Source: a virus
Direction: 5' to 3' (one strand)
Virus record (IMG/VR): IMGVR_UViG_3300032224_001181
Coordinates: 1-52,469 of that record
Length of the DNA stretch: 52,469 bases
Shown here: positions 1 to 39,413 of the stretch, piece after piece
Layout: each line of letters opens with the position of its first letter
Position numbering within the stretch: the first letter of the stretch is position 1
The notes under the pieces: generated by a model
Seen by the model: the letters and a program-made list of their open reading frames with translations, nothing else
The model's database searches: none
What the model was told of the DNA's origin: nothing
Translations under genes and position numbers: made by a program

Positions 1-957
1 CATATCTTCTAGCTGTTGTGCGTAGTCTACAAATCGCTCGTTCAATTCTGCTTGTGTTATGTTGCCTTTGAGATGTTCTATGAATATGTAATTGGTGTAG
101 ACATAAAAATAGATACTGCTGGCGCTGATAGGCTCAAAGAAAATAGCACGATTGCCATTCTTAAGTATGCCACCTTCGTAGACTTTCCTAGCGTAGTAGC
201 TTTTAAATTCGTATTCTATTTGACCTTCAAGCCGGCCAACATTGTCAACATCTACATTGAATATACGACAGATGTCCTCATAGGCTTGTTCCACAGGCGT
301 AACTGTGTCATTAAACAAATAACCGTAGGTTCTGCGATGCTTCAAAGGAATGCCAAACATCCAACCATTTGCAGTAGCGCGATGTTCCGTGTACTGCCAA
401 TCTCCGGGTTTATATTCTGTGTGAATGATACCGTGATTCAACGGAAGGCTGGTTACAATATGATATCCAGAGTAGTCTTTAGGAAAGCCCCGCGTATCTA
501 CAACATGATCAAAATGATGGGCAACACCGTTTACAATAACATCTGCTCCGTTGCCTGTGCTGACAATATCGTCTACTAGGCCTTCCGTGGTTTTAAACTT
601 TAAAGGAAAGCGTTCAGCAAGTCTAGGAAACACAAAGTCTTTTAGTTTAAAGTTATTGATATGTATAGCAACGCCACCGTCAAGCAAGGGATTGAACCAA
701 TCGTCTGATCGCCAATCCATAAACTTGTTGCCAAACTTTAGAGTGCTGTCCATTGCATCTAGGTCGTCCATGAAGCTGAATCCACAGGCTTGTTCTAATA
801 CTGTAATTAACCCGCTATTAGTGCTTTCACCGATGCCTAGTATCTTTGTGTTAGGGTCGTATATGCTAACGATTTCAAATCCGTTAGGCACATTAGCACA
901 TAACTGTGCGGCTGAAATTACTCCGGCAGATCCTGCTCCAATGACAGCTATTTTCAT
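1..957 (-). CDS. flavin-dependent (tryptophan-type) halogenase, C-terminus cut by window edge
   Basis: The frame is open from an ATG at 957 to base 1 (319 residues) with no stop, so the gene continues beyond the window. An FAD-binding GxGxxG lies at residues 7-12 (GAGSAG). Lys74, in KFGNKFMDW, aligns with the catalytic lysine of PrnA-type halogenases. The family WxWxIP motif appears as WMFGIP (residues 199-204), and a late FFEPISASSIY segment matches the usual GFVEPLEA region. The family uses FADH2 and O2 to make a lysine-held hypohalite; cyanophage members of this fold are known to halogenate small aromatics, so the substrate need not be tryptophan. The start overlaps the iscU stop as ATGA, so the two are probably translationally coupled. 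The Phe in WxFxIP is a variation. Family assignment is firm; halide and substrate are unknown. Confidence 0.85.
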   Translation of the reverse strand, partial: MKIAVIGAGSAGVISAAQLCANVPNGFEIVSIYDPNTKILGIGESTNSGLITVLEQACGFSFMDDLDAMDSTLKFGNKFMDWRSDDWFNPLLDGGVAIHINNFKLKDFVFPRLAERFPLKFKTTEGLVDDIVSTGNGADVIVNGVAHHFDHVVDTRGFPKDYSGYHIVTSLPLNHGIIHTEYKPGDWQYTEHRATANGWMFGIPLKHRRTYGYLFNDTVTPVEQAYEDICRIFNVDVDNVGRLEGQIEYEFKSYYARKVYEGGILKNGNRAIFFEPISASSIYFYVYTNYIFIEHLKGNITQAELNERFVDYAQQLEDM

Positions 958-1715: not shown

Positions 1716-2624
1716 ATGGCAACCGGTAAGGTAATAGCACTTAATTATAACAATATTCAAGGAAAAATAGGAGCAGTCTTAGGGCCTCCCAGTCAATCTG
1801 TCCTTGACATAGGATACAACCTTGCTGTAAGTGGCGTAGCAGTTCAGCTGGGAAATCGAGTATATGGGCGTGATGTCAACTTGATGATCGCTGATTTAAG
1901 TACTGTTTACACACACCAAACTGGTTTAGAGCTAGGCCTGTCTACATTCAGTGAGGGACAGATCATTAGAACTGAAGACTTAACTCCGCTATCAACTAGA
2001 ACAGATACTGCTTATACTAATCGAAACATTGTAGGTGTGCAAAATCTTTCACAATTAAATTCCCACTCTTACAGCGATGGAACAACTTGGTCAGCCTATA
2101 GAATACACTCAGTTACACTAGACTGGGGAAGCAATGCTGAATTTCGTGGGTGGGCCAACTTAGGAGGATTTATCACAATTGGGGCGTCCTTTTCTGGAGG
2201 TAGTGGCACTTCGCAGACAAACTCATGGAGTCAATTATTGCAGTCTGTAGGAACCCTGGTATTTGGTAATCTTGCAGGAGTCCAAGAAAATCAATCACGT
2301 AGCGGAACTTTTCCAAACGGCGGACTTTACAACATTTTACAAAACGGTCAAGTTGGTGCTAATGCAAGTATCGCTTTTAAAATTCTTGCCACTGATGCAA
2401 ACTATACTGGCAATCAGTACAAGATAACCATTACACCAAATGGCGGAACTACTGCATTTAACTGCACAGGCTTTACTATTACTGCTACATTATCAGATCC
2501 GCATCTACCAAAAGGCGCCTCCCTAGAAGACTATATCGATGCAGGCTTTGCGTGGACTGTTAACACATACTATGCATTTGGCAAGACCCCCACTACGTCA
2601 AATATTACAGATAGCATATCATAA
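1716..2624 (+). CDS. tail/virion structural protein, WNxxQG-domain paralogue 1
   Basis: A 302-residue Gly/Ser/Thr/Asn-rich protein without signal peptide. It begins with NNIQGKIGAVLGPP, later has FRGWANLGGFITI, SWSQLL and DANYTGNQYKI. The same four landmarks, in the same order, recur in the next protein and in the C-terminal part of the 1441-residue protein, so the three share one domain of about 300 residues. I infer a virion component (tail fibre, baseplate or decoration) from composition, from the fusion of this domain to a subtilisin/esterase tail protein and from gene order. No enzyme motif is visible. The next gene has a clear AAGGA ribosome site just after this stop. Confidence 0.65.
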   Translation: MATGKVIALNYNNIQGKIGAVLGPPSQSVLDIGYNLAVSGVAVQLGNRVYGRDVNLMIADLSTVYTHQTGLELGLSTFSEGQIIRTEDLTPLSTRTDTAYTNRNIVGVQNLSQLNSHSYSDGTTWSAYRIHSVTLDWGSNAEFRGWANLGGFITIGASFSGGSGTSQTNSWSQLLQSVGTLVFGNLAGVQENQSRSGTFPNGGLYNILQNGQVGANASIAFKILATDANYTGNQYKITITPNGGTTAFNCTGFTITATLSDPHLPKGASLEDYIDAGFAWTVNTYYAFGKTPTTSNITDSIS

Positions 2625-2633
2625 GGAACTAAT

Positions 2634-3515
2634 ATGGGACAAGTATACGCAACAGATTGGAATCCGTTACAGGGTACCATAGCCAACGTAATGGGAGCAC
2701 CTAATGGATTAAACTACGGATGGAACAAGGCGTCGAGCATACAAAGTGCTCAGGTTAATAGTTCCGTAAAAATCAATAGCACTCATTATAATAAATTAAA
2801 AAACGATATTGATTTTTGCTACACACATATCACAGGTTCAGCTTCGGCTCTTCCTACTAAAGCCACAGGCGATCGAGTATATCAAGTCGACTTGTCTAAT
2901 ATTTCGGCGGCGGTTACTTATATTAACACTTATAAAACAAGTGCAGCCAGTGGCCAACTTACACAGACCAATGTGTTCAGTGACACACAAGCATACACAT
3001 GGACCGCAACATTGGGTGCTACCTACACAATTCCATTTGGTAGCGTTAATAACTTCAATTCTTTCTGGAATGGTGGAGGAGCCATTTTCTTCAACGTGTC
3101 TAGATATGCTGGCTCGGCGACTCCGCAGAATCAAGGGTGGAGTAATCTATTAACTAATATGGGATTTATCTACATCACACCCACTACCAGTGGACAAACT
3201 GGCAACGCATGGGCAGGAAGTACTTTTGTAACCAGCGGCATTGGAGGATTTAGTACGATTCCTTCAACTTTTTTCAGACAATATGACCAAGATACAAATT
3301 ACACAGGCAACTATTTTAACCTTCAGGTCTACTTAGATGCGCTACCCGGGGCGGCTTCTTCATTGAGTCTTGTAATGCTGTTGGTTGATAATCATGTAGG
3401 AGTCGGAGGTGGCCCTGATGCTATTGACGGTAACATTGCATTGACTATAACTCAAAAATACCCATATAGCTTTGCAGCCTCTGCGGCTACGTCTAGCGCC
3501 GGTGTGCTGACCTAA
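2634..3515 (+). CDS. tail/virion structural protein, WNxxQG-domain paralogue 2
   Basis: A 293-residue paralogue of the preceding protein: DWNPLQGTIANVMGAPNG near the N-terminus, then FNSFWNGGGAIFFNVSR, GWSNLLTNMG and DTNYTGNYFNLQVYL. It is preceded by a good AAGGA site (about 2625-2630), as is the gene after it, giving a tidy three-gene late structural operon. The GGGAIFF segment matches GGFITI of paralogue 1 and GGYITWNF of the large protein, probably one beta-strand of a repeated sandwich or fibre domain. It is Thr/Ser/Asn rich, with few charged residues in the second half, as in fibre proteins. Function is inferred from family relation and position only. Confidence 0.65.
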   Translation: MGQVYATDWNPLQGTIANVMGAPNGLNYGWNKASSIQSAQVNSSVKINSTHYNKLKNDIDFCYTHITGSASALPTKATGDRVYQVDLSNISAAVTYINTYKTSAASGQLTQTNVFSDTQAYTWTATLGATYTIPFGSVNNFNSFWNGGGAIFFNVSRYAGSATPQNQGWSNLLTNMGFIYITPTTSGQTGNAWAGSTFVTSGIGGFSTIPSTFFRQYDQDTNYTGNYFNLQVYLDALPGAASSLSLVMLLVDNHVGVGGGPDAIDGNIALTITQKYPYSFAASAATSSAGVLT

Positions 3516-3523
3516 GGAATAAC

Positions 3524-6500
3524 ATGACTGAATTAATTGAATACATTGTAATCGTACACAGAATTGAAGACGCTGAATCTCTGCACGAAGAAATTATAAA
3601 TTCAGGAGGCAGTGAATGTGTTCCTGATCGAGCCATTGAATGTTGCTTGAACCCAACTGTCAGTCGCTGTACGCATTATATGATGACTGAGGCTGAAGCC
3701 GAGTTATTAAAACAAGATCCTAGGGTATGGGCAATAACTAGAACCATGAAGGATTTAGGAGTCGAAGCTGTACCTGCTGGCGGTTACACGCAAACTTCTA
3801 ATTTATGGAGTAGAGGATATATAACTGCTCAAGGCGATAATAACTGGGGTATCTTGAGAGCCTACGAAGGTGTTCAGCGATTCCAATGGGGTAGTGACAG
3901 TCCACAACAGCTATTTGATGTATCAGCTACTGTAAACATTCCATACAACGGTACCAACGTAGACGTAGTTATAGTAGACGGACATGCTGATCCGGCTCAC
4001 CCGGAATTTGCAGTGAATTCAGACGGAACTGGCGGAAGCCGCTATAACCAATTCAACTGGTTGAGTCTCAGCACTGGACTATGGGGTACAAGTAATGGAA
4101 ACTATATCTATACTCCTTACAAACAATCCCAAGGAGCAAGCGCGGCATTAGAAACCAATAACATGCACGGCTCACACGTTGCAGGAATCGCATGTGGTAA
4201 TACTAACGGTTGGGCAAGGGGCGCAAACATCTACAACATATATCCATATGGCAATGATAGCAATTCTTTTAACTTTACTACTAATCAGTTTATTAACGGA
4301 TACTTTTTTGAGTACATAAAATATTGGCACCAGAACAAGGCGGTTAACCCTGCAACTGGTACTAGAAATCCGACAATTATAAACAACAGTTGGGTCATTC
4401 AAAAAGTTATTGATATATCTACTATCAGTTCGGTTACCTACAGAGGAACTACTTACACAGCTCCGTCGGGCGGATTTAGTGTAGCTACCCTTAATGGTTA
4501 TGGTTTTCCAACTTATAATAATACCCAGGTTAGAATACTATATCGATATCCCGCATACGAATCACAATTACAAGACTGTATCAATGCAGGAATTATAGTA
4601 GTCAGTGCCGCTGGTAATTATTCTACAAAGATAGCTAGAGATGATCAATCTACAACTGATCCAGATTATAATAACAGTCTTGTAACTTCTGGAACAACAT
4701 ATTATTATAATAGAGGAACATTTACTACAGTTTCTAATGGTATTGTAGTTGGTGCTCTAAGTTCTTCCTACATTGATATCAAATCAGGATATTCTGAAAC
4801 AGGTCCTAGAATTGACGTATGGTCTCCTGGTTCTTATATTATGAGTTCGGTTTTTAACAATACCACCTACAGCGGTGCCGTAGCTGATGCTAGAAATAGC
4901 AACTATTATCAAGTTAAGATTAATGGTACATCAATGGCAAGTCCGCAGGTGACCGGACTGTTGGCATGTTTGTTAGAATTATTTCCAACTACTACTCAGG
5001 CAGATGCACAACAGTACTTAATCGACCACGGTAAAGAAGGAACCATGCAGGACGGCGGGTATAATGTAACTAATCCGTTATACGATACCGGACTACTTCA
5101 AGGTGCACCAAATAGAACACTGTACGCATACTTTCCTCCGGCGCCGACGGCAACAGTTGTCCTTCCTTCAACTACCATCAAAGCACAAGTGGTGGCAAAA
5201 TTTACTCCAGTAATCGGATCAGGCGGAGTGGGGCAATTGGTTTACACTATTAATCCTTCATTACCGCTAAGTCCTTTAGACGGAACTTCAACTTGTTGGA
5301 TCGAAGCCATAGTCGGAAGAACTGATGTAGCGTATTTTCATATAGTTTATACCAACGAGAATATCTTTAAAGTCGGAGACGGAATTTTTGGAGCAGGCAT
5401 AGCAGAGGGATCAGTTTTAGGATTTCCTACAGATTCGACTAGGGGAACATGGACTATATCACCGGGCCGCACTTCTAATTTAGGTAGTGCCCTTAGCCCT
5501 GTGTATTTTGACAGCGGTCTTCATTTAAATGCCAAGACTGGTGAAATTACAGGAAGAGTCGCAACTACCCAAGGACCAACTACATATACAGTCACAGTCT
5601 CTGGTGGAGGAGTATCAGCTACTGCACAGTTCTCCTTGACGATTTCTAATCCAGCATCATTTAACGTCTCACTCGATGTACCTTATGGCGCCGACGCTAT
5701 TCAAAAATGTGATATCTTTCAAGTAGAGGGAGTAACACCAAAAGGAGTTATAATTTGGGTTCATGGTGGTGGCTGGTCAGGTGGTGCCAAATCGAGCGCC
5801 GGTTTTTTAACAAGCCAGGCTGGATATTGGATCAACGATGATGACCAAATAAGACAGCTGACGCAGAAAGGCTATATCGTTGTTAACTGTAACTATCGTC
5901 TAGCTACTACTGACACCATCTACATCCCGTCACCAGGTAGTACGGCAAACTACCATCCTGCAGGAGCAGATGACGTTGAGACCATTATAAGATTCTGCAC
6001 AGTTACCGGTGCCGGGTCTAGTTATAGCACATTATGGAATACGATTTCAGCTAGGGCCAACACATATGGACTTATAATTTCTGGAGAAAGTGCAGGCGGA
6101 CATCTAGTAGCCTATGCTGGTATGAAATATATTTACGACTATGGACAAGGACCAATTACCGCTATCTGTCCAGTAGTTGGACCAATGGATCTAGACTACG
6201 TTACCTTAAACGATGCAACAGTTACTGAGACTGCAAAATTCATTGTCAATAGCTATGTAAACAGTACAGGCAACAGCGTCGCATTGCAAGCGGCTTCGCC
6301 TAGATACAAGTATGGATCACAAGCAAGCCCGGGTTTATGGCGTAGTGCTGTAAAAAATTCCAACGTGAAATTTATTTTTGTAAACAACATCAATGACACC
6401 TTGGTTCCTCCTGCGCTAACTGATAATTTTATCAATATATTATTGGCAGAGTTAGGAAATAACAGAGTTCAGTATATCAAACTAGACGAAGGTGGTGATT

Positions 6501-7849
6501 GGGCGGCAGCTAATATTGCTAACCCCAGTCATAATTTAACCAGTTCTATTTCAACTATTGCAGAAACTGCGGCACTTTTAGGCCTTAAAATAACCGCCAC
6601 AGTAGCAGTTCCTAACAAACAAGCCACTGCTGGAACATCAGTAGGCTCATTTATTCCTGTGTCATTTTCTGGTGGGGCTGGAGCTGTCACATACAGTATT
6701 AGCCCAAGTCTTCCAACAGGATTAAACTTTAATACTGCCAACGGTGCTATTACTGGAACCCCTACAGCTTCTTCCCAGACTACCACATATACCGTTACCG
6801 GAACAGATGCGTCACTTAATACATCGTCTGGAACTTTTACTTTATCAATTCAATCTGCTCCAGTGTCCGGCTCAACTAATGCAGTTAACCATAATGACTG
6901 GAATCTTTTGCAAGGCAAGGTAACAGCAGTTCTAGGAACTCCTGACGGTAGTACAGTTGATCTAGGGTGGAATCAAAGTTACACAAGTAGTATAGTAAAC
7001 ACCAACGATACGATAACTGGTATTGAGTATGATCAAATTGCACAAGATGTTGATAAATGTTATCAACAAATTGCCAATACACGATATCAACCTACATCTA
7101 GAGTACCTGTAACAACAAAATATTTGGTCACACAATCTGACTATAATGGATTGAGTGCGGCTGTTGACTACACCTATACAAATAGAAATACAGCATCTTC
7201 AAGTAGACTAACTCAAAGTTCATGGACTGCACACGGCGGCAATATTTCCTTTTCACAAGCACACGGATTCCGTTACCAAGTTGATTTTCCAAGTAATGCC
7301 GCATTTAGAAGTTTTTGGAATGCCGGCGGATATATAACATGGAATTTTAGTTTTGTGCCATCTATTCAAAATCCAATTAGTCAAGGCTGGGCTGATCTAA
7401 CTGGTGGTATGGGAAGTTTTAGGCTTACTAGAAATTCCTTTACTCAATTTAATCAAGGTATAGCTTATACTGCAACAATAGGACAAACTGGCGGAGTATA
7501 TGGCGGGAACATGCTGGTAAATCCAGATCCACTAACTCAAGTTATAACTCCGACAGCAAAAGTCTTCGAAGCAGATGCAAATTATACCAGCAGTTACTTT
7601 GTTATGTTTTTAGGATTAGACACTGCTGATTTATTACAAGCTAAATCTATTATAGTAGTTGCGGCAATCCAGAATATGTATGTCGGCGCAGGCGGTTCTA
7701 GTACCGTTTCGACTGGCAATCCTGGACTTAATCAAGTTGTGACTTATCCTTTCAATATTCAACCCACAGGTCAGACCCATGTGTATAATTACATAGACGG
7801 TACTGTTTACTATGCTCCGGGCTATCCAGGAATACAACCGTCATTCTAA
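3524..7849 (+). CDS. giant tail protein: subtilisin protease + Ig + esterase + Ig + virion domain
   Basis: A 1441-residue multidomain protein. Residues 1-90 resemble a propeptide-like lead (THYMMTEAEAELLKQDPRV) that I recall from phage subtilisin-like proteins. A subtilase (S8) domain spans about 100-520 with Asp152 (VVIVDG), His215 (HGSHVAG) and Ser470 (NGTSMASPQ). A putative Ig (He_PIG-like) domain lies at about 540-705. An alpha/beta hydrolase of the HGGG esterase class spans about 710-1015: oxyanion HGGGW at 747-751, nucleophile Ser856 in GESAGG, Asp958 in NDTLVPP and His1003. A second, cleaner He_PIG domain lies at about 1020-1115. The C-terminal 1124-1441 is the third copy of the WNxxQG virion domain. 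Both catalytic triads look intact. It probably acts on the host surface, removing acyl groups and proteins, or is self-processed during assembly. It follows an AAGGA site. Confidence 0.85.
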   Translation: MTELIEYIVIVHRIEDAESLHEEIINSGGSECVPDRAIECCLNPTVSRCTHYMMTEAEAELLKQDPRVWAITRTMKDLGVEAVPAGGYTQTSNLWSRGYITAQGDNNWGILRAYEGVQRFQWGSDSPQQLFDVSATVNIPYNGTNVDVVIVDGHADPAHPEFAVNSDGTGGSRYNQFNWLSLSTGLWGTSNGNYIYTPYKQSQGASAALETNNMHGSHVAGIACGNTNGWARGANIYNIYPYGNDSNSFNFTTNQFINGYFFEYIKYWHQNKAVNPATGTRNPTIINNSWVIQKVIDISTISSVTYRGTTYTAPSGGFSVATLNGYGFPTYNNTQVRILYRYPAYESQLQDCINAGIIVVSAAGNYSTKIARDDQSTTDPDYNNSLVTSGTTYYYNRGTFTTVSNGIVVGALSSSYIDIKSGYSETGPRIDVWSPGSYIMSSVFNNTTYSGAVADARNSNYYQVKINGTSMASPQVTGLLACLLELFPTTTQADAQQYLIDHGKEGTMQDGGYNVTNPLYDTGLLQGAPNRTLYAYFPPAPTATVVLPSTTIKAQVVAKFTPVIGSGGVGQLVYTINPSLPLSPLDGTSTCWIEAIVGRTDVAYFHIVYTNENIFKVGDGIFGAGIAEGSVLGFPTDSTRGTWTISPGRTSNLGSALSPVYFDSGLHLNAKTGEITGRVATTQGPTTYTVTVSGGGVSATAQFSLTISNPASFNVSLDVPYGADAIQKCDIFQVEGVTPKGVIIWVHGGGWSGGAKSSAGFLTSQAGYWINDDDQIRQLTQKGYIVVNCNYRLATTDTIYIPSPGSTANYHPAGADDVETIIRFCTVTGAGSSYSTLWNTISARANTYGLIISGESAGGHLVAYAGMKYIYDYGQGPITAICPVVGPMDLDYVTLNDATVTETAKFIVNSYVNSTGNSVALQAASPRYKYGSQASPGLWRSAVKNSNVKFIFVNNINDTLVPPALTDNFINILLAELGNNRVQYIKLDEGGDWAAANIANPSHNLTSSISTIAETAALLGLKITATVAVPNKQATAGTSVGSFIPVSFSGGAGAVTYSISPSLPTGLNFNTANGAITGTPTASSQTTTYTVTGTDASLNTSSGTFTLSIQSAPVSGSTNAVNHNDWNLLQGKVTAVLGTPDGSTVDLGWNQSYTSSIVNTNDTITGIEYDQIAQDVDKCYQQIANTRYQPTSRVPVTTKYLVTQSDYNGLSAAVDYTYTNRNTASSSRLTQSSWTAHGGNISFSQAHGFRYQVDFPSNAAFRSFWNAGGYITWNFSFVPSIQNPISQGWADLTGGMGSFRLTRNSFTQFNQGIAYTATIGQTGGVYGGNMLVNPDPLTQVITPTAKVFEADANYTSSYFVMFLGLDTADLLQAKSIIVVAAIQNMYVGAGGSSTVSTGNPGLNQVVTYPFNIQPTGQTHVYNYIDGTVYYAPGYPGIQPSF

Positions 7850-11949: not shown

Positions 11950-12004
11950 AGATCGTCAGCGTATTAAAGAATTACGCCAGCGAGACCCATTCATTTACAA
12001 ATGA
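11903..12004 (+). CDS. 33-residue basic small protein ending RDPFIYK
   Basis: A short ORF in another frame, overlapping the end of the glycosyltransferase-like gene and sharing ATGA with the carbamoyltransferase start. The protein is basic (start MKRLLRILMTPWQWYKD, end RDPFIYK). I recall similarly short proteins with a K/R-DPFIYK end in T4-like cyanophage genomes. The exact ATGA link to the next gene is what one expects of a real coupled cistron. Function unknown; the hydrophobic/basic N-terminus could be amphipathic. Confidence 0.5.
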   Translation: MKRLLRILMTPWQWYKDRQRIKELRQRDPFIYK

Positions 12005-13482
12005 TTACCTGGGGGATATCGGCCAATAGTCACAATGCGGCAGTTGCTGTATTTGATGGTGATCGGCTGATATTTGCTACAGAAACAGAACGTTGGTCTG
12101 GAGTTAAAAATGACCCGCATTTAGCTTCCGACTTGCACTATTACCTACATACTAAATCACTAACACCTAGTAAAATTATTTGGTACGAGAAGCCTTTACT
12201 AAAAACACTTAGACAGCTAGAAGCCGGACAGGGGCTAAATCTAAAAGAAAACAATATTAGACGATACATAAAAAAACACTTGTTTTCTTTACCAATAGAA
12301 TATGTTAGCCATCACCGTGCTCACGCGGCGGCCGGCTACTACACATCAAAGTTCGATGATGCGTGTGTTTTAGTTATTGATGCGATCGGTGAATACGAAA
12401 CACTTACTATTTGGAAAGGTCAAGGAGATAATCTAATTAGAGTATACAATTTAGATTATCCTAATAGCCTAGGACTATGGTACAGCGCAATGACACAGCG
12501 TTGCGGTTTGAAGCCCAACGAAGAAGAATACATCCTCATGGGCATGGCCGCATACGGCGATCCTAAGAAACATTTTACTAGGATACTAACAGACTTCTTT
12601 CAGTTTCCTAATGATGATTACAATCATATATTTCGATTAAAACAAAATGTACATCGTGGTTGTAAAGATTGGGCTCCTGAGCTAACCACAGAACAAGACT
12701 TGTTTGATATTGCGGCCGCAACACAAGCAGTATACGAATTGGTATTTGAAAGGGTATTACAATACGCTTTACAAATGGTGCCTAGCAAGAATTTAGTGTT
12801 CATGGGAGGATGCGCATTAAACTGTTCAGCAAATCCTATAGCATACAAATATTTTGACAACATGTGGATTATGCCTGCACCCGGGGATAGCGGAAGTGCG
12901 ATAGGAGCTGTGCTGGCCAAGCTAGGTAAACATATAGAGTGGACAGGCCCTTATCTAGGGCATGATATAGGTACCAGGCACAACAACCATAATATCCTGA
13001 ACGAATTGCTAACATCTGGGATATGTGGGGTAGCTAGAGGATCTGCCGAGTTTGGTCCAAGAGCATTAGGCAATAGAAGTCTACTTGCAGATCCAAGAAC
13101 TATTGAAATAAAGGAACGTGTGAATGATATCAAACAACGACAACAATTTAGGCCATTTGCGCCAGCAATTTTGGAAGACTTGGCTCATTATTACTTTGAT
13201 ATCCCTGGCAACGGCAGTAGTCCTTATATGCAAGTGGTCGCTCGTTGTAGGAATCCTGAGCTATTTCCTGCTATCGTTCATATTGACGGCAGTAGTCGTG
13301 TACAGACTGTATCAAAGCGAGATAACCCCGAGTTCTACGAATTATTAGTAATATGGTATAAGGCTACAGGATGTCCGATGCTGTTAAACACCAGCTTGAA
13401 CATCAAAGGCAAACCAATGGTTAATGATACAGATGATGCGTTAGAATTTCAAAACACCTATAATGTCAAGGTGTTTATGTAG
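12001..13482 (+). CDS. carbamoyltransferase, NodU/CmcH family
   Basis: A 493-residue two-domain enzyme. The N-terminal Kae1/ASKHA-like domain begins WGISANSHNAAVAVFDGD and carries the metal-binding HHRAHAAAG at residues 104-112, VIDAIGE, and the GGCALNCSANP and APGDSGSAIGA blocks. The C-terminal YrdC-like domain shows EFGPRALGNRSLLADPR, RPFAPAILED and LLNTSLNIKGKPMV. Length and all blocks match the family, which moves a carbamoyl group from carbamoyl phosphate through carbamoyl-AMP to a hydroxyl of a sugar or small molecule. It is the last gene of the plus-strand modification block; its end overlaps the convergent next gene by 8 bases. Such genes occur in marine phages, usually near glycosyltransferases. 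Confidence 0.9.
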   Translation: MITWGISANSHNAAVAVFDGDRLIFATETERWSGVKNDPHLASDLHYYLHTKSLTPSKIIWYEKPLLKTLRQLEAGQGLNLKENNIRRYIKKHLFSLPIEYVSHHRAHAAAGYYTSKFDDACVLVIDAIGEYETLTIWKGQGDNLIRVYNLDYPNSLGLWYSAMTQRCGLKPNEEEYILMGMAAYGDPKKHFTRILTDFFQFPNDDYNHIFRLKQNVHRGCKDWAPELTTEQDLFDIAAATQAVYELVFERVLQYALQMVPSKNLVFMGGCALNCSANPIAYKYFDNMWIMPAPGDSGSAIGAVLAKLGKHIEWTGPYLGHDIGTRHNNHNILNELLTSGICGVARGSAEFGPRALGNRSLLADPRTIEIKERVNDIKQRQQFRPFAPAILEDLAHYYFDIPGNGSSPYMQVVARCRNPELFPAIVHIDGSSRVQTVSKRDNPEFYELLVIWYKATGCPMLLNTSLNIKGKPMVNDTDDALEFQNTYNVKVFM

Positions 13483-15596: not shown

Positions 15597-16340
15597 ATGA
15601 ATATCGGAATATACGGAAATAGTATCTGCGAGTGGGATAGAGTTCAAGAGTTTTCTTTTATCAAAAAACTTGAAGATTTCTATTCAGCAAACATAATACA
15701 TACAGGAACTACCATGTGTTCCGAAGAACGTATATTATTTGACCTTAAAAAAACCAAAAATCTAGACCTAGCAATAATTTTTCATGCTAAAGCTAGATGG
15801 GTTTATATTCCAGCATGGCATAGAGATATTGAATCGTTAGATAGATATACCATAATTAAAAAAATACACAGTTTTCCGGGGTATAGTGAAGACCACACTT
15901 TTGATAATACAGAAGGTGAAAGTAGTATTTTAGCTACACGTCAGTGGTATCAAGATCATATAGGCGATACAAAATTTAAAGACTCTAAACTTTCTCCAGA
16001 AGAATTACTAGAAGCATTGTTACTGAATAAGAAATATATGTTTAGTTTTGAATTACAGCGTAATAGATTTTGCGGGGCATTAGTGCAAATAGATCAATAT
16101 TTGAATTTTAAACAAATCCCAGTTGTTCACTGTTTATCAGAAAAAGAATTTCACCCTGAGTGGTTTAATTTCAGTAGTGGGGTAGTTAATCATAGTATTA
16201 CAGAGATTAGAAAAATTCCTGAATACAAATCTGGATATAACTTGTCCTGCAACGGTGTAAACGAAGTAGGTAATGAGTTAATGTTTAATCAACTTATTCC
16301 ATTAATTAACGCGGCCCGTAGTAAAGTGGTTATACGCTAA
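15597..16340 (+). CDS. SGNH-like protein; C-terminus runs into a tRNA-like element
   Basis: A 247-residue protein. The N-terminal IGIYGNSICEW resembles the nucleophile block of SGNH/GDSL hydrolases (GNS instead of GDS), and the alpha/beta pattern (DLAIIFHAKARW) fits, but no clear DxxH block is visible, so catalysis is doubtful. The last nine residues (AARSKVVIR) are encoded exactly by the first part of a tRNA-like sequence starting at 16311, so the original C-terminus was probably different. There is no Shine-Dalgarno; a TATAAATA lies 9 bases upstream. Confidence 0.5.
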   Translation: MNIGIYGNSICEWDRVQEFSFIKKLEDFYSANIIHTGTTMCSEERILFDLKKTKNLDLAIIFHAKARWVYIPAWHRDIESLDRYTIIKKIHSFPGYSEDHTFDNTEGESSILATRQWYQDHIGDTKFKDSKLSPEELLEALLLNKKYMFSFELQRNRFCGALVQIDQYLNFKQIPVVHCLSEKEFHPEWFNFSSGVVNHSITEIRKIPEYKSGYNLSCNGVNEVGNELMFNQLIPLINAARSKVVIR

Positions 16341-16384
16341 CTGTCCAAGTTAGAGACGGAGGTTCGAATCCCCCGGCCGCTCCA
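16311..16384 (+). tRNA. degenerate or unusual tRNA-like element (possibly tRNA-Gly UCC)
   Basis: The 74 bases begin GCGGCCC and end GGCCGCT plus an encoded CCA. There is a D-arm-like part (AGTGGTTATAC), a perfect 5-bp anticodon stem (CTAAC/GTTAG) and a canonical T-loop TTCGAAT. Faults are: one extra C at the acceptor/D-arm junction, an A-C mismatch in the T-stem, and loop TGTCCAA, which would give anticodon UCC but has G instead of U at position 33. Acceptor G1-C72/C2-G71, C35-C36 and discriminator U fit glycine identity. An Asp (GUC) reading needs a distorted loop. It lies at a convergent gene junction and overlaps the ends of both flanking ORFs. It is either a noncanonical functional tRNA or a decaying one. 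Confidence 0.55.
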
Positions 16385-37480: not shown

Positions 37481-37827
37481 GTTGGGGATACCACCTTTTA
37501 CTTGATTGTTCTGAGTGCAATCAAAGCATCGATAATGATACAATAATTGAAAAATTTGTTGTAGAGTTGATACCTGCTATAGGTATGCAAGCAGTTGATG
37601 GCCCTCGAATAGAATATCTCCTCCCTAAGACTCCTAATGCGGGCTATAGTATGATGCAAATGATACAAACAAGCAATATCACTGCTCACTTTGTTAGTGC
37701 TACCAGGGACGGATACATCGATCTGTTTAGTTGCAAGAAATTTAACAAAGATATTGTTACTGCATTGGTTAAAAAATACTTTAATCCAAAGATCATTAAA
37801 GAAACATTTTTAGAGAGACAAGCATAA
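37477..37827 (+). CDS. speD: S-adenosylmethionine decarboxylase (SpeD/SpeH type)
   Basis: A 116-residue protein of the short bacterial class. SNITAHF holds Ser66 (the self-cleavage site that becomes pyruvoyl) and His71; IDLFSCKKF holds Cys86, matching Ser63, His68 and Cys83 of Thermotoga AdoMetDC. The Glu before the serine is Thr here, which may alter processing. It makes decarboxylated AdoMet, the aminopropyl donor for spermidine; no aminopropyltransferase is in the window. speD occurs in many marine phages. Coupled to both neighbours (ATGA, TAATG). Confidence 0.88.
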   Translation: MSWGYHLLLDCSECNQSIDNDTIIEKFVVELIPAIGMQAVDGPRIEYLLPKTPNAGYSMMQMIQTSNITAHFVSATRDGYIDLFSCKKFNKDIVTALVKKYFNPKIIKETFLERQA

Positions 37828-39413
37828 TGAGGATAGTTATTGTAGGCGGTGGCACTGCTGGCTGGATGACTGCCGGCTATCTTTCAAAGTATTACAAGGA
37901 TAGCACGATTACTGTTGTAGAATCTCCAACGATACCTAAAATCGGAGTAGGAGAAAGTGTTACTCCTCACGTAACTAATTTCTTTGACGAGATAGGAGTA
38001 GATAGGCATCATTGGATGAAACATACTTCTGCTGTGTACAAATTAGCTAACAAATTTGTTAACTGGAAAAAAGGACAAGGCGAAAGCGAATACTTTAGTT
38101 TTACATACACTACATCAGCAGATAGCTTTTACAAAGATATAACTCCCGCCATATCAAAGGAAGATTTTTCAGGAAGGGTTGATATTGAACGGACTACAGA
38201 CTACTTGATAGAAATGGCAAAGCGTGGTGACATTGACCGGTTTGACAAGTATTTTAATCCACAGTTTCATTACATGGAAAAGAATGCAAGTCCGTTCATA
38301 GATGATGATATGTTACTAAATGGTCCTTTTAGTTTTAGTCAACACATCAATGCAGAACTTGCTGGTAATTATATTAGAGATTATATAGCTGTTCCTAATG
38401 GTGTAGTACACATCATTGCAACAGTTACTACAGTTAATCACGAAGGTGATAGTATATCAAGTATAGAGTTAGATAATGATGCTAAACTAACTGCTGATCT
38501 CTTTATAGATTGTACAGGATTCCACAAGGCTCTTATCACAGAACTAGGTTGGAAAGAAAAGATTTACAGCGATCACCCGATCGATAGTGCGTGGGTATGT
38601 CAAACAAACTACACAGACCAAGATAAAGAACTGGTAAATTATACACAAAGTATTGCAGAGCCTCACGGTTGGAGATTTAAAATAGGGCTGTACCATAGAA
38701 TGGGCAATGGTTACTGTTTTAGTTCTAAACATGTTAGTCCTGAAGATGCACTTGCACACTTTGAGAAACAGATAGGTCCACAAAAAACTAAACCTAGACT
38801 AATCAAATGGCAACCAAAGCGATTAGAAAAATTTGGAAGTGGTAATGTTGCCGCAATTGGGCTAAGTTGTGGGTTCGTCGAGCCATTAGAAGCTAATGCA
38901 TTATATACTATTATTACCAGTATTCGAAGACTTAATAATGTAATAGAAGAATATCAACATACTAAAGAATTTGATTTTAGCAAGTATAACGAAAAGATGT
39001 CATATACTATTGATGATATTGCAGATTTTATATTGGTACACTATACCCTAAGTTCTAGAACAGATACTGCTTTCTGGATTGATATGCAGGCACTAGGTAA
39101 AAAACTCAATCATAAAGACCTAGTATGGAACAAGTACAATCATACTAATAATTCTATGTATGGAGCTATCACAGGATATACGCTCTTTCCAGATTACATG
39201 TGGTGCCAACTTGCTATATCGTGGGGCATGCATGATATATATTCGCCAAAGATCAACGAACACACGTACAATATTGCAAGACATCACTATCAATACAGCG
39301 AAAAGAAACACAATATGATATCATCAGTTGTTGATAAAAATAGTGCATGGCACAAACAGTTTATATTCGATGGACTAACACCATTAGAATGGGAAGAAAA
39401 ATATATAAAATGA
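37827..39413 (+). CDS. flavin-dependent (tryptophan-type) halogenase
   Basis: A full-length 528-residue halogenase. GGGTAGW (7-13) is the FAD loop and family signature, Lys72 in YKLANKFVNW aligns with the catalytic lysine, VGESVTPHV the pyrophosphate region, and GFVEPLEANALY (about 349-360) the flavin-side block. The WxWxIP motif reads WRFKIG near residue 282, another aromatic substitution plus loss of the Pro. The enzyme needs FADH2 from a reductase not seen here. It sits in an operon with AdoMet decarboxylase and amidinotransferase, so the halogenated substrate may be a small molecule made there. Only distantly related to the left-edge halogenase. Confidence 0.9.
   Translation: MRIVIVGGGTAGWMTAGYLSKYYKDSTITVVESPTIPKIGVGESVTPHVTNFFDEIGVDRHHWMKHTSAVYKLANKFVNWKKGQGESEYFSFTYTTSADSFYKDITPAISKEDFSGRVDIERTTDYLIEMAKRGDIDRFDKYFNPQFHYMEKNASPFIDDDMLLNGPFSFSQHINAELAGNYIRDYIAVPNGVVHIIATVTTVNHEGDSISSIELDNDAKLTADLFIDCTGFHKALITELGWKEKIYSDHPIDSAWVCQTNYTDQDKELVNYTQSIAEPHGWRFKIGLYHRMGNGYCFSSKHVSPEDALAHFEKQIGPQKTKPRLIKWQPKRLEKFGSGNVAAIGLSCGFVEPLEANALYTIITSIRRLNNVIEEYQHTKEFDFSKYNEKMSYTIDDIADFILVHYTLSSRTDTAFWIDMQALGKKLNHKDLVWNKYNHTNNSMYGAITGYTLFPDYMWCQLAISWGMHDIYSPKINEHTYNIARHHYQYSEKKHNMISSVVDKNSAWHKQFIFDGLTPLEWEEKYIK

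Follow-up and report, generated by a model that had tools for sequence, protein, structure and literature searches.

A viral protein joining a subtilase of a phage tail family to an esterase in a single chain

To our knowledge, the enzymes described from phage tails each attack a single class of surface polymer, and comprise glycan lyases and hydrolases, deacetylases and peptidoglycan hydrolases. The closest described relatives of the protein reported here are the subtilases of PHROG 9158, equivalent to T4-GC 292, a cyanophage baseplate/tail-fibre family whose members in S-H38, S-CREM1, P-SSM2 (PSSM2_297) and S-SCSM1 (gp144) share with it a propeptide-like N-terminus and a peptidase S8 domain with conserved Asp, His, Asn and Ser; unlike it, members of the family mostly stand alone (~530-610 residues) or are extended at the C-terminus by LamG, gp9-like or unknown parts. 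Tailspikes that deacetylate surface polysaccharide are reported for Acinetobacter phage Aristophanes (PMC8471582) and Pectobacterium phage PP99 (PMC6989608), and a carboxylesterase gene in cyanophages is listed in one paper. Here we analyzed a 52,469-nucleotide stretch of DNA from an uncultured tailed bacterial virus (positions 1 to 52,469 of IMG/VR record IMGVR_UViG_3300032224_001181; hereafter the window), in which one gene encodes a 1441-residue fusion of such a subtilase with an esterase. Tail subtilases are known though unstudied and tail esterases are known, but a conserved chain with both is new, and no description of a protease-esterase tail protein was found in the searchable literature, which omits most subscription journals. 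We consider it fairly probable that the fusion is a tail- or baseplate-associated bifunctional hydrolase of the zymogen type, which would open a proteinaceous, ester-decorated host surface.

The domain order of the protein is an I9-like propeptide, an S8 subtilase, an immunoglobulin-like (Ig-like) region, a BD-FAE-type alpha/beta-hydrolase, a second Ig-like domain and a C-terminal domain shared with neighbouring proteins. The preliminary description of the window had placed the triad Asp152/His215/Ser470 in one chain with HGGG747-750/Ser856/Asp958/His1003, and every named residue was found at its position; two intact active sites in a single polypeptide are thus backed by sequence and conservation and, for the protease, also by fold. 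The features of the gene, with the evidence for each in brackets, are as follows:

3524..7849, + strand, gene for the subtilase-esterase fusion protein, 1441 residues (ATG start, single uninterrupted frame; orthologues)
3524..3793, + strand, I9-like subtilisin propeptide, residues 1-~90, predicted intramolecular chaperone/inhibitor (fold alignment; boundary approximate)
3794..5143, + strand, Peptidase_S8 catalytic domain, residues ~91-540 (Pfam; PHROG 9158; VIA-align)
3977..3979, + strand, catalytic Asp152 (residue check, conservation)
4166..4168, + strand, catalytic His215 (residue check, conservation)
4616..4618, + strand, oxyanion Asn365 in AAGN, not named in the preliminary description (residue check, conservation)
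4931..4933, + strand, catalytic Ser470 in GTSMASP (residue check, conservation)
5144..5653, + strand, first Ig-like (He_PIG) region with an insertion, residues ~541-710 (Pfam; beta-rich in the model)
5654..6583, + strand, alpha/beta-hydrolase of BD-FAE type (esterase), residues ~711-1020 (Pfam BD-FAE; PDB relatives; Foldseek)
5762..5773, + strand, HGGG oxyanion motif, residues 747-750 (residue check, conservation)
6089..6091, + strand, nucleophile Ser856 in GESAGG (residue check, conservation)
6395..6397, + strand, acid Asp958 (residue check, conservation)
6530..6532, + strand, base His1003 (residue check, conservation)
6584..6859, + strand, second Ig-like domain (He_PIG) with SraP cadherin-like fold, residues ~1021-1112 (Pfam; VIA-align)
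6872..7846, + strand, C-terminal domain of helices and a beta-sandwich, residues ~1117-1441, proposed virion anchor (homology to neighbours; model)

Pfam placed Peptidase_S8 at residues 144-502 of the product of this open reading frame (ORF) with an E-value of 1e-20 (74.7 bits; cut-off 21.8), and the PHROG 9158 profile covers residues 6-536, that is, propeptide and catalytic domain together (E 8.6e-93). Residues 1-1115 were modelled with AlphaFold2 at a mean predicted local distance difference test score (pLDDT) of 74.9, with high values in the subtilase part, which aligned by VIA-align with keratinase 5wsl (Z 34.0, root-mean-square deviation (rmsd) 2.5 over 274 of 282 residues) and, with similar values, with aqualysin and proteinase K-type enzymes. 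Since a PDB profile search with the alignment of the fused subtilases listed nothing at E<=1e-12, the comparison with the PDB is carried by fold and not by sequence. The features of peptidase family S8, namely the Asp-His-Ser order, the oxyanion Asn and the subtilisin fold, are all present in the fusion, and a pseudoenzyme subtilase was ruled out by fold and conservation. Identity of the fused subtilase to the homologues of S-H38, S-CREM1 and Sf-FR1 is 39-41%. Among related phage subtilases, those of L076 (5992-8634) and L077-L087 match the hidden Markov model (HMM) in two segments, with about 180-300 residues apparently inserted within the S8 domain, and the homologue in L063 has a match to AGS_C.

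Residues 1-~90, overlooked in the preliminary description, are predicted from the model to form an I9-like propeptide. Unprocessed pro-subtilisin E (3whi) aligned over model residues 3-538 and ProN-Tk-SP (3afg) over residues 1-541; these alignments span 63-75 residues more than those of mature enzymes, with the propeptide region compared as part of the longer query. The linker at residues 85-93 was modelled with low confidence. From such a fold, the protease would be expected to cleave off roughly its first 90 residues autocatalytically. Self-processing had been suggested for this protein on the basis of its letters, and the fold agrees with this to a limited extent, as a prediction for the N-terminal propeptide; no evidence was found for cleavage between the enzyme domains.

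The second enzyme domain matched BD-FAE in Pfam at residues 739-963 (E 1.2e-11, 45 bits; cut-off 26.8), as did the orthologues in L021 and L012, while NCBIfam gave only partial HSL-lipase-like and mycosin-like matches on the whole protein, far under cut-off. Its relatives in the PDB by profile comparison are 4zrs and 2pbl, and viral alpha/beta-hydrolases appear in the Foldseek BFVD list for the fusion model. The domain shares with these BD-FAE (PF20434)/HSL-type esterases the HGG(G) motif, the GxSAGG nucleophile, the Asp and the His, in order and conserved, but the solved enzymes are single-domain cellular proteins, whereas here the esterase is part of a multi-domain phage protein. The Pfam scan of the fusion listed no SGNH/GDSL family at E<=1, with BD-FAE listed instead; no direct comparison with tailspikes was made. 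A bacterial source was not found in one scan of genome contigs with the ten-sequence esterase alignment (70 matched stretches, 0 relatives), and cultured phages gave no convincing sequence match to this esterase.

In scans of viral contigs, the whole architecture was found on at least six besides the window: the three-module protein is complete or nearly so on L004, L005/L013, L006, L008/L011, L012, L021/L022 and L111, some of which are near-copies of each other; the copy on L006, at a contig end, is without its first ~73 residues. Partial copies were found on L007, L009, L010, L014, L015 and L024. An assembly chimera or a chance motif was ruled out by the occurrence of the same architecture, with conserved catalytic residues, on many contigs. 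Wherever the nine aligned orthologues cover them, the catalytic and oxyanion residues show no variation. Equally invariant are HGGG, Ser, Asp and His among the ten aligned esterase sequences (44-83% identical to that of the window), and the Asp, His, Asn and Ser of the subtilase across phage relatives (36-46% identity). Purifying selection on both enzymes is strong, with ratios of non-synonymous to synonymous divergence (dN/dS) of about 0.03-0.19 in the subtilase and 0.07-0.14 in the esterase (pairwise Nei-Gojobori, only where dS was unsaturated). Enzyme folds are reused for binding in phage tails, and both domains might therefore serve as receptor-binding scaffolds whose catalysis is unused; we regard this as very unlikely, because the catalytic and oxyanion residues are invariant while the remainder diverges to as little as 44% identity in the esterase and 36-46% in the subtilase.

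The fused subtilases form one clade with support of 100/100, and three among the longer related records contain a distinct stand-alone subtilase paralogue. In L094 (12776-14353), L093 and L095, a second, stand-alone subtilase gene shares its gene run with an ORF resembling a tail protein. Within the fusion gene, synonymous divergence (pS) shifts sharply between domains: the subtilases of L005 and L008 hardly differ (pS 0.10), unlike their esterases (pS 0.67) and C-terminal domains (pS 0.69), whereas the window and L004 have diverged in the subtilase (pS 0.71) and are close in the C-terminal domain (pS 0.20). These shifts within one gene indicate module recombination, as expected of host-range proteins.

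Pfam recognised two He_PIG Ig-like stretches in the fusion, the second of which resembles the SraP cadherin-like repeat 4m00 (VIA-align Z 11.6, rmsd 1.9 over 89 residues). The C-terminal domain (~325 residues) that follows had been described as common to the fusion and its two upstream neighbours, and this was confirmed by homology, with 32% identity to the nearer neighbour (E 1.5e-27) and 26% to the second (E 1.6e-15):

2634..3515, + strand, upstream neighbour, solely the shared C-terminal domain type, 293 residues (homology)
1716..2624, + strand, second upstream neighbour, solely the shared domain type, 302 residues (homology)

The model of the C-terminal domain has a pLDDT of 82.5 and is matched over most of its length by three uncharacterised proteins of uncultured phages in BFVD; no PDB match was listed outside its Ig part, although a weak or absent match is no proof of a new fold. 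Its virion role is proposed, as an anchor, and is not set by the sequence itself.

At E<=1e-5, 47 phage records contained homologues of the subtilase, and almost all of these phages are cyanophages. In S-H38 and S-CREM1 the subtilase gene comes after a gene for a 'baseplate wedge subunit and tail pin', in P-SSM2 it is within a cluster of tail-fibre and tail-spike genes, and in S-SCSM1 the subtilase is at the N-terminus of the 1411-residue gp144, which has LamG domains and is annotated '(virion protein)'. The same record carries this label on ORF213 and ORF214 and omits it from several other baseplate genes; the corresponding paper reports ORF213 and ORF214 as detected in virions by mass spectrometry (PMC9602691). 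Furthermore, the C-terminal end of the L057 homologue is a gp9-like 'baseplate wedge tail fiber connector' (PHROG 677, E 3.4e-18). The fusion protein is thus very probably a tail component, as had been claimed from the sequence, a placement well supported at the level of the family by the virion-labelled homologue, the baseplate/tail-fibre operons and the gp9-like anchor, with the evidence coming from relatives and not from this protein itself.

Several observations weigh against a zymogen-type tail enzyme with two activities. In the window and its relatives, the fusion gene lies beside glycosyltransferase-like and metabolic genes, outside a recognisable tail operon, and family searches recognised no tail genes beside it in the window; in G001, G002 and G004 it is the stand-alone subtilase paralogue that is nearer to tail-like genes. 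The C-terminal domain had no convincing sequence match in cultured phages, Pfam I9 had no match on the fusion protein at E<=1, and the esterase loops 748-770, 855-858, 955-966 and 988-1004 have pLDDT <50 in the model. A collapsed domain or a misaligned triad, which the preliminary description had named as grounds for rejection, is accordingly excluded for the subtilase, while the loops of the esterase leave it structurally admissible. The gene surroundings, with no adjacent tail gene recognised, would fit a non-virion enzyme, secreted or cytoplasmic, used for lysis or for the breakdown of host proteins and storage material during infection. However, we consider this quite improbable given the Ig domains, the shared C-terminal domain and the links of the family to phage tails, among them a member labelled as a virion protein; in addition, the N-terminus has a propeptide-like fold, although no targeted signal-peptide test was made.

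The best BFVD match to the fusion model is an unannotated 974-residue protein of the cultured cyanophage ACG-2014h (S-MbCM7), and its hydrolase recurs in a second phage:

L120:3335-6259, AHB80591, subtilase + feruloyl-esterase-like + cupredoxin-like protein (cultured cyanophage ACG-2014h)
L123:11128-12849, S-ShM2_094, annotated gp7 'baseplate wedge initiator', with a C-terminal alpha/beta-hydrolase esterase (adjoins gp9)

Like the fusion, AHB80591 carries a tail-family subtilase (S8 domain at 154-506) followed in the same chain, from ~565, by an alpha/beta-hydrolase, which resembles feruloyl esterase 9j07 (E 4.4e-8) and whose Pfam esterase matches are below cut-off. It differs from the fusion in its esterase subfamily (9j07-like, with GYSNGG and no HGGG), in having no Ig-like Pfam match and in its cupredoxin-like end. 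Kinship between the two esterases was undetected (hhalign probability 0.9%, with a shallow profile) and the ACG-2014h fusion is for this reason treated as independent, although the two would be expected to be related very remotely, as members of the alpha/beta-hydrolase superfamily. Two lineages therefore appear, from their sequences, to have fused a protease with an esterase. The AHB80591-type hydrolase also forms the C-terminal half of S-ShM2_094 (41% identity), with Ser, Asp and His motifs common to both, and this esterase domain was found in 65 cyanophage records. S-ShM2_094 and its relatives resemble the fusion in carrying an alpha/beta-hydrolase esterase, here within a baseplate-operon protein beside gp9 and gp8, but their chain is without a protease and the esterase is of a different subfamily. 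Since the S-ShM2 genes that follow S-ShM2_094 (wedge protein, gp8) have homologues downstream of the subtilase in S-CREM1 and S-H38, a comparable place in the baseplate operon is taken by an esterase in one phage and by a protease in the others. In our view, the strongest argument for both activities working together comes from the ACG-2014h fusion together with the occurrence of its esterase in a protein annotated as part of the baseplate. Both observations lend weight to the earlier suggestion of penetration through a layer of acylated glycan and protein, which is plausible on this comparison.

Other known proteins share one part of the fusion or the other. The 1251-residue 'extracellular serine proteinase precursor' of Agrobacterium phage Atu_ph07 likewise combines a subtilase with He_PIG stretches, three in this case, but neither Pfam nor the esterase HMM built here detected an esterase domain in it. 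Neither the esterase nor the C-terminal domain of the window was found on any of the PHROG 9158/T4-GC 292 cyanophage tail subtilases compared. We know of no protease domain in the deacetylating tailspikes. These tailspikes are comparable to the fusion in their mode of action, as tail enzymes that deacetylate surface polysaccharide, and the comparison is one of function.

The independent pairing with an esterase also bears on the possibility that the subtilase is mainly an assembly protease, which matures itself or neighbouring fibre proteins and leaves the esterase as the sole surface enzyme. The I9-like propeptide fold predicts loss of at least the first ~90 residues, and the two adjacent proteins with the shared C-terminal domain could be substrates. 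On the other hand, the subtilase homologues of cultured phages occur without these neighbours, they share the fold of secreted broad-specificity proteases, and the independent pairing points to a joint surface role, so that we regard an assembly protease as unlikely.

In the bifunctional tail hydrolase that we favour, the I9-like propeptide would fold and inhibit the S8 domain and be removed autocatalytically near residue 80-93, and the C-terminal domain would anchor the protein on the virion, with the baseplate or a fibre as the probable site, in the manner of the C-terminal anchor or glycan-binding domains of relatives. The subtilase could then cut a protein on the host surface (an S-layer, outer-membrane protein or pilus, for example), while the BD-FAE-type esterase, about one Ig domain away, may strip ester-linked acyl groups (acetyl or feruloyl-like) from a surface glycan, and receptors or the cell wall would be exposed during adsorption.

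Searches for signs of the host gave little: psbA (Photo_RC), a sign of a cyanophage host, had no match in nine records, which are possibly fragments, and the search for the nearest phage by DNA ligase returned distant matches only. Elsewhere in the window, Pfam or PHROG assigned about nine ORFs in positions 26194-52000 to the radical SAM proteins, of which one also has a B12-binding domain and another a SPASM domain. The same region encodes a class-III aminotransferase and a fusion of HAD and nucleotidyltransferase, and so dense a set is unusual in a phage contig. Two tryptophan-halogenase-like flavoproteins are encoded at 1-957 (- strand) and 37827-39413 (+ strand; Trp_halogenase E 3.6e-93 for this second one), a Nol-like carbamoyltransferase at 12001-13482 (PHROG 1601, E 1e-100), and a tRNA-Gly (tcc) at 16311-16384, overlapping the end of ORF 15597-16340.

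These findings suggest a likely role for a widespread family annotated as 'hypothetical' or of 'unknown function' (PHROG 9158, T4-GC 292). They also raise the testable question of whether these phages breach a surface that requires both protein and ester cleavage, for which ACG-2014h on Synechococcus WH7803 is indicated as a cultured test system. More tentatively, T4-like aquatic phages may have evolved a convergent baseplate module of protease plus esterase, in which the conserved tail subtilase was fused on two or more occasions with unrelated alpha/beta-hydrolase esterases, or gave way to such an esterase at a comparable place in the operon. The module would serve to breach a surface composed of protein and esterified glycan. 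If this is true, the module would represent a previously unrecognised class of two-substrate tail enzymes.

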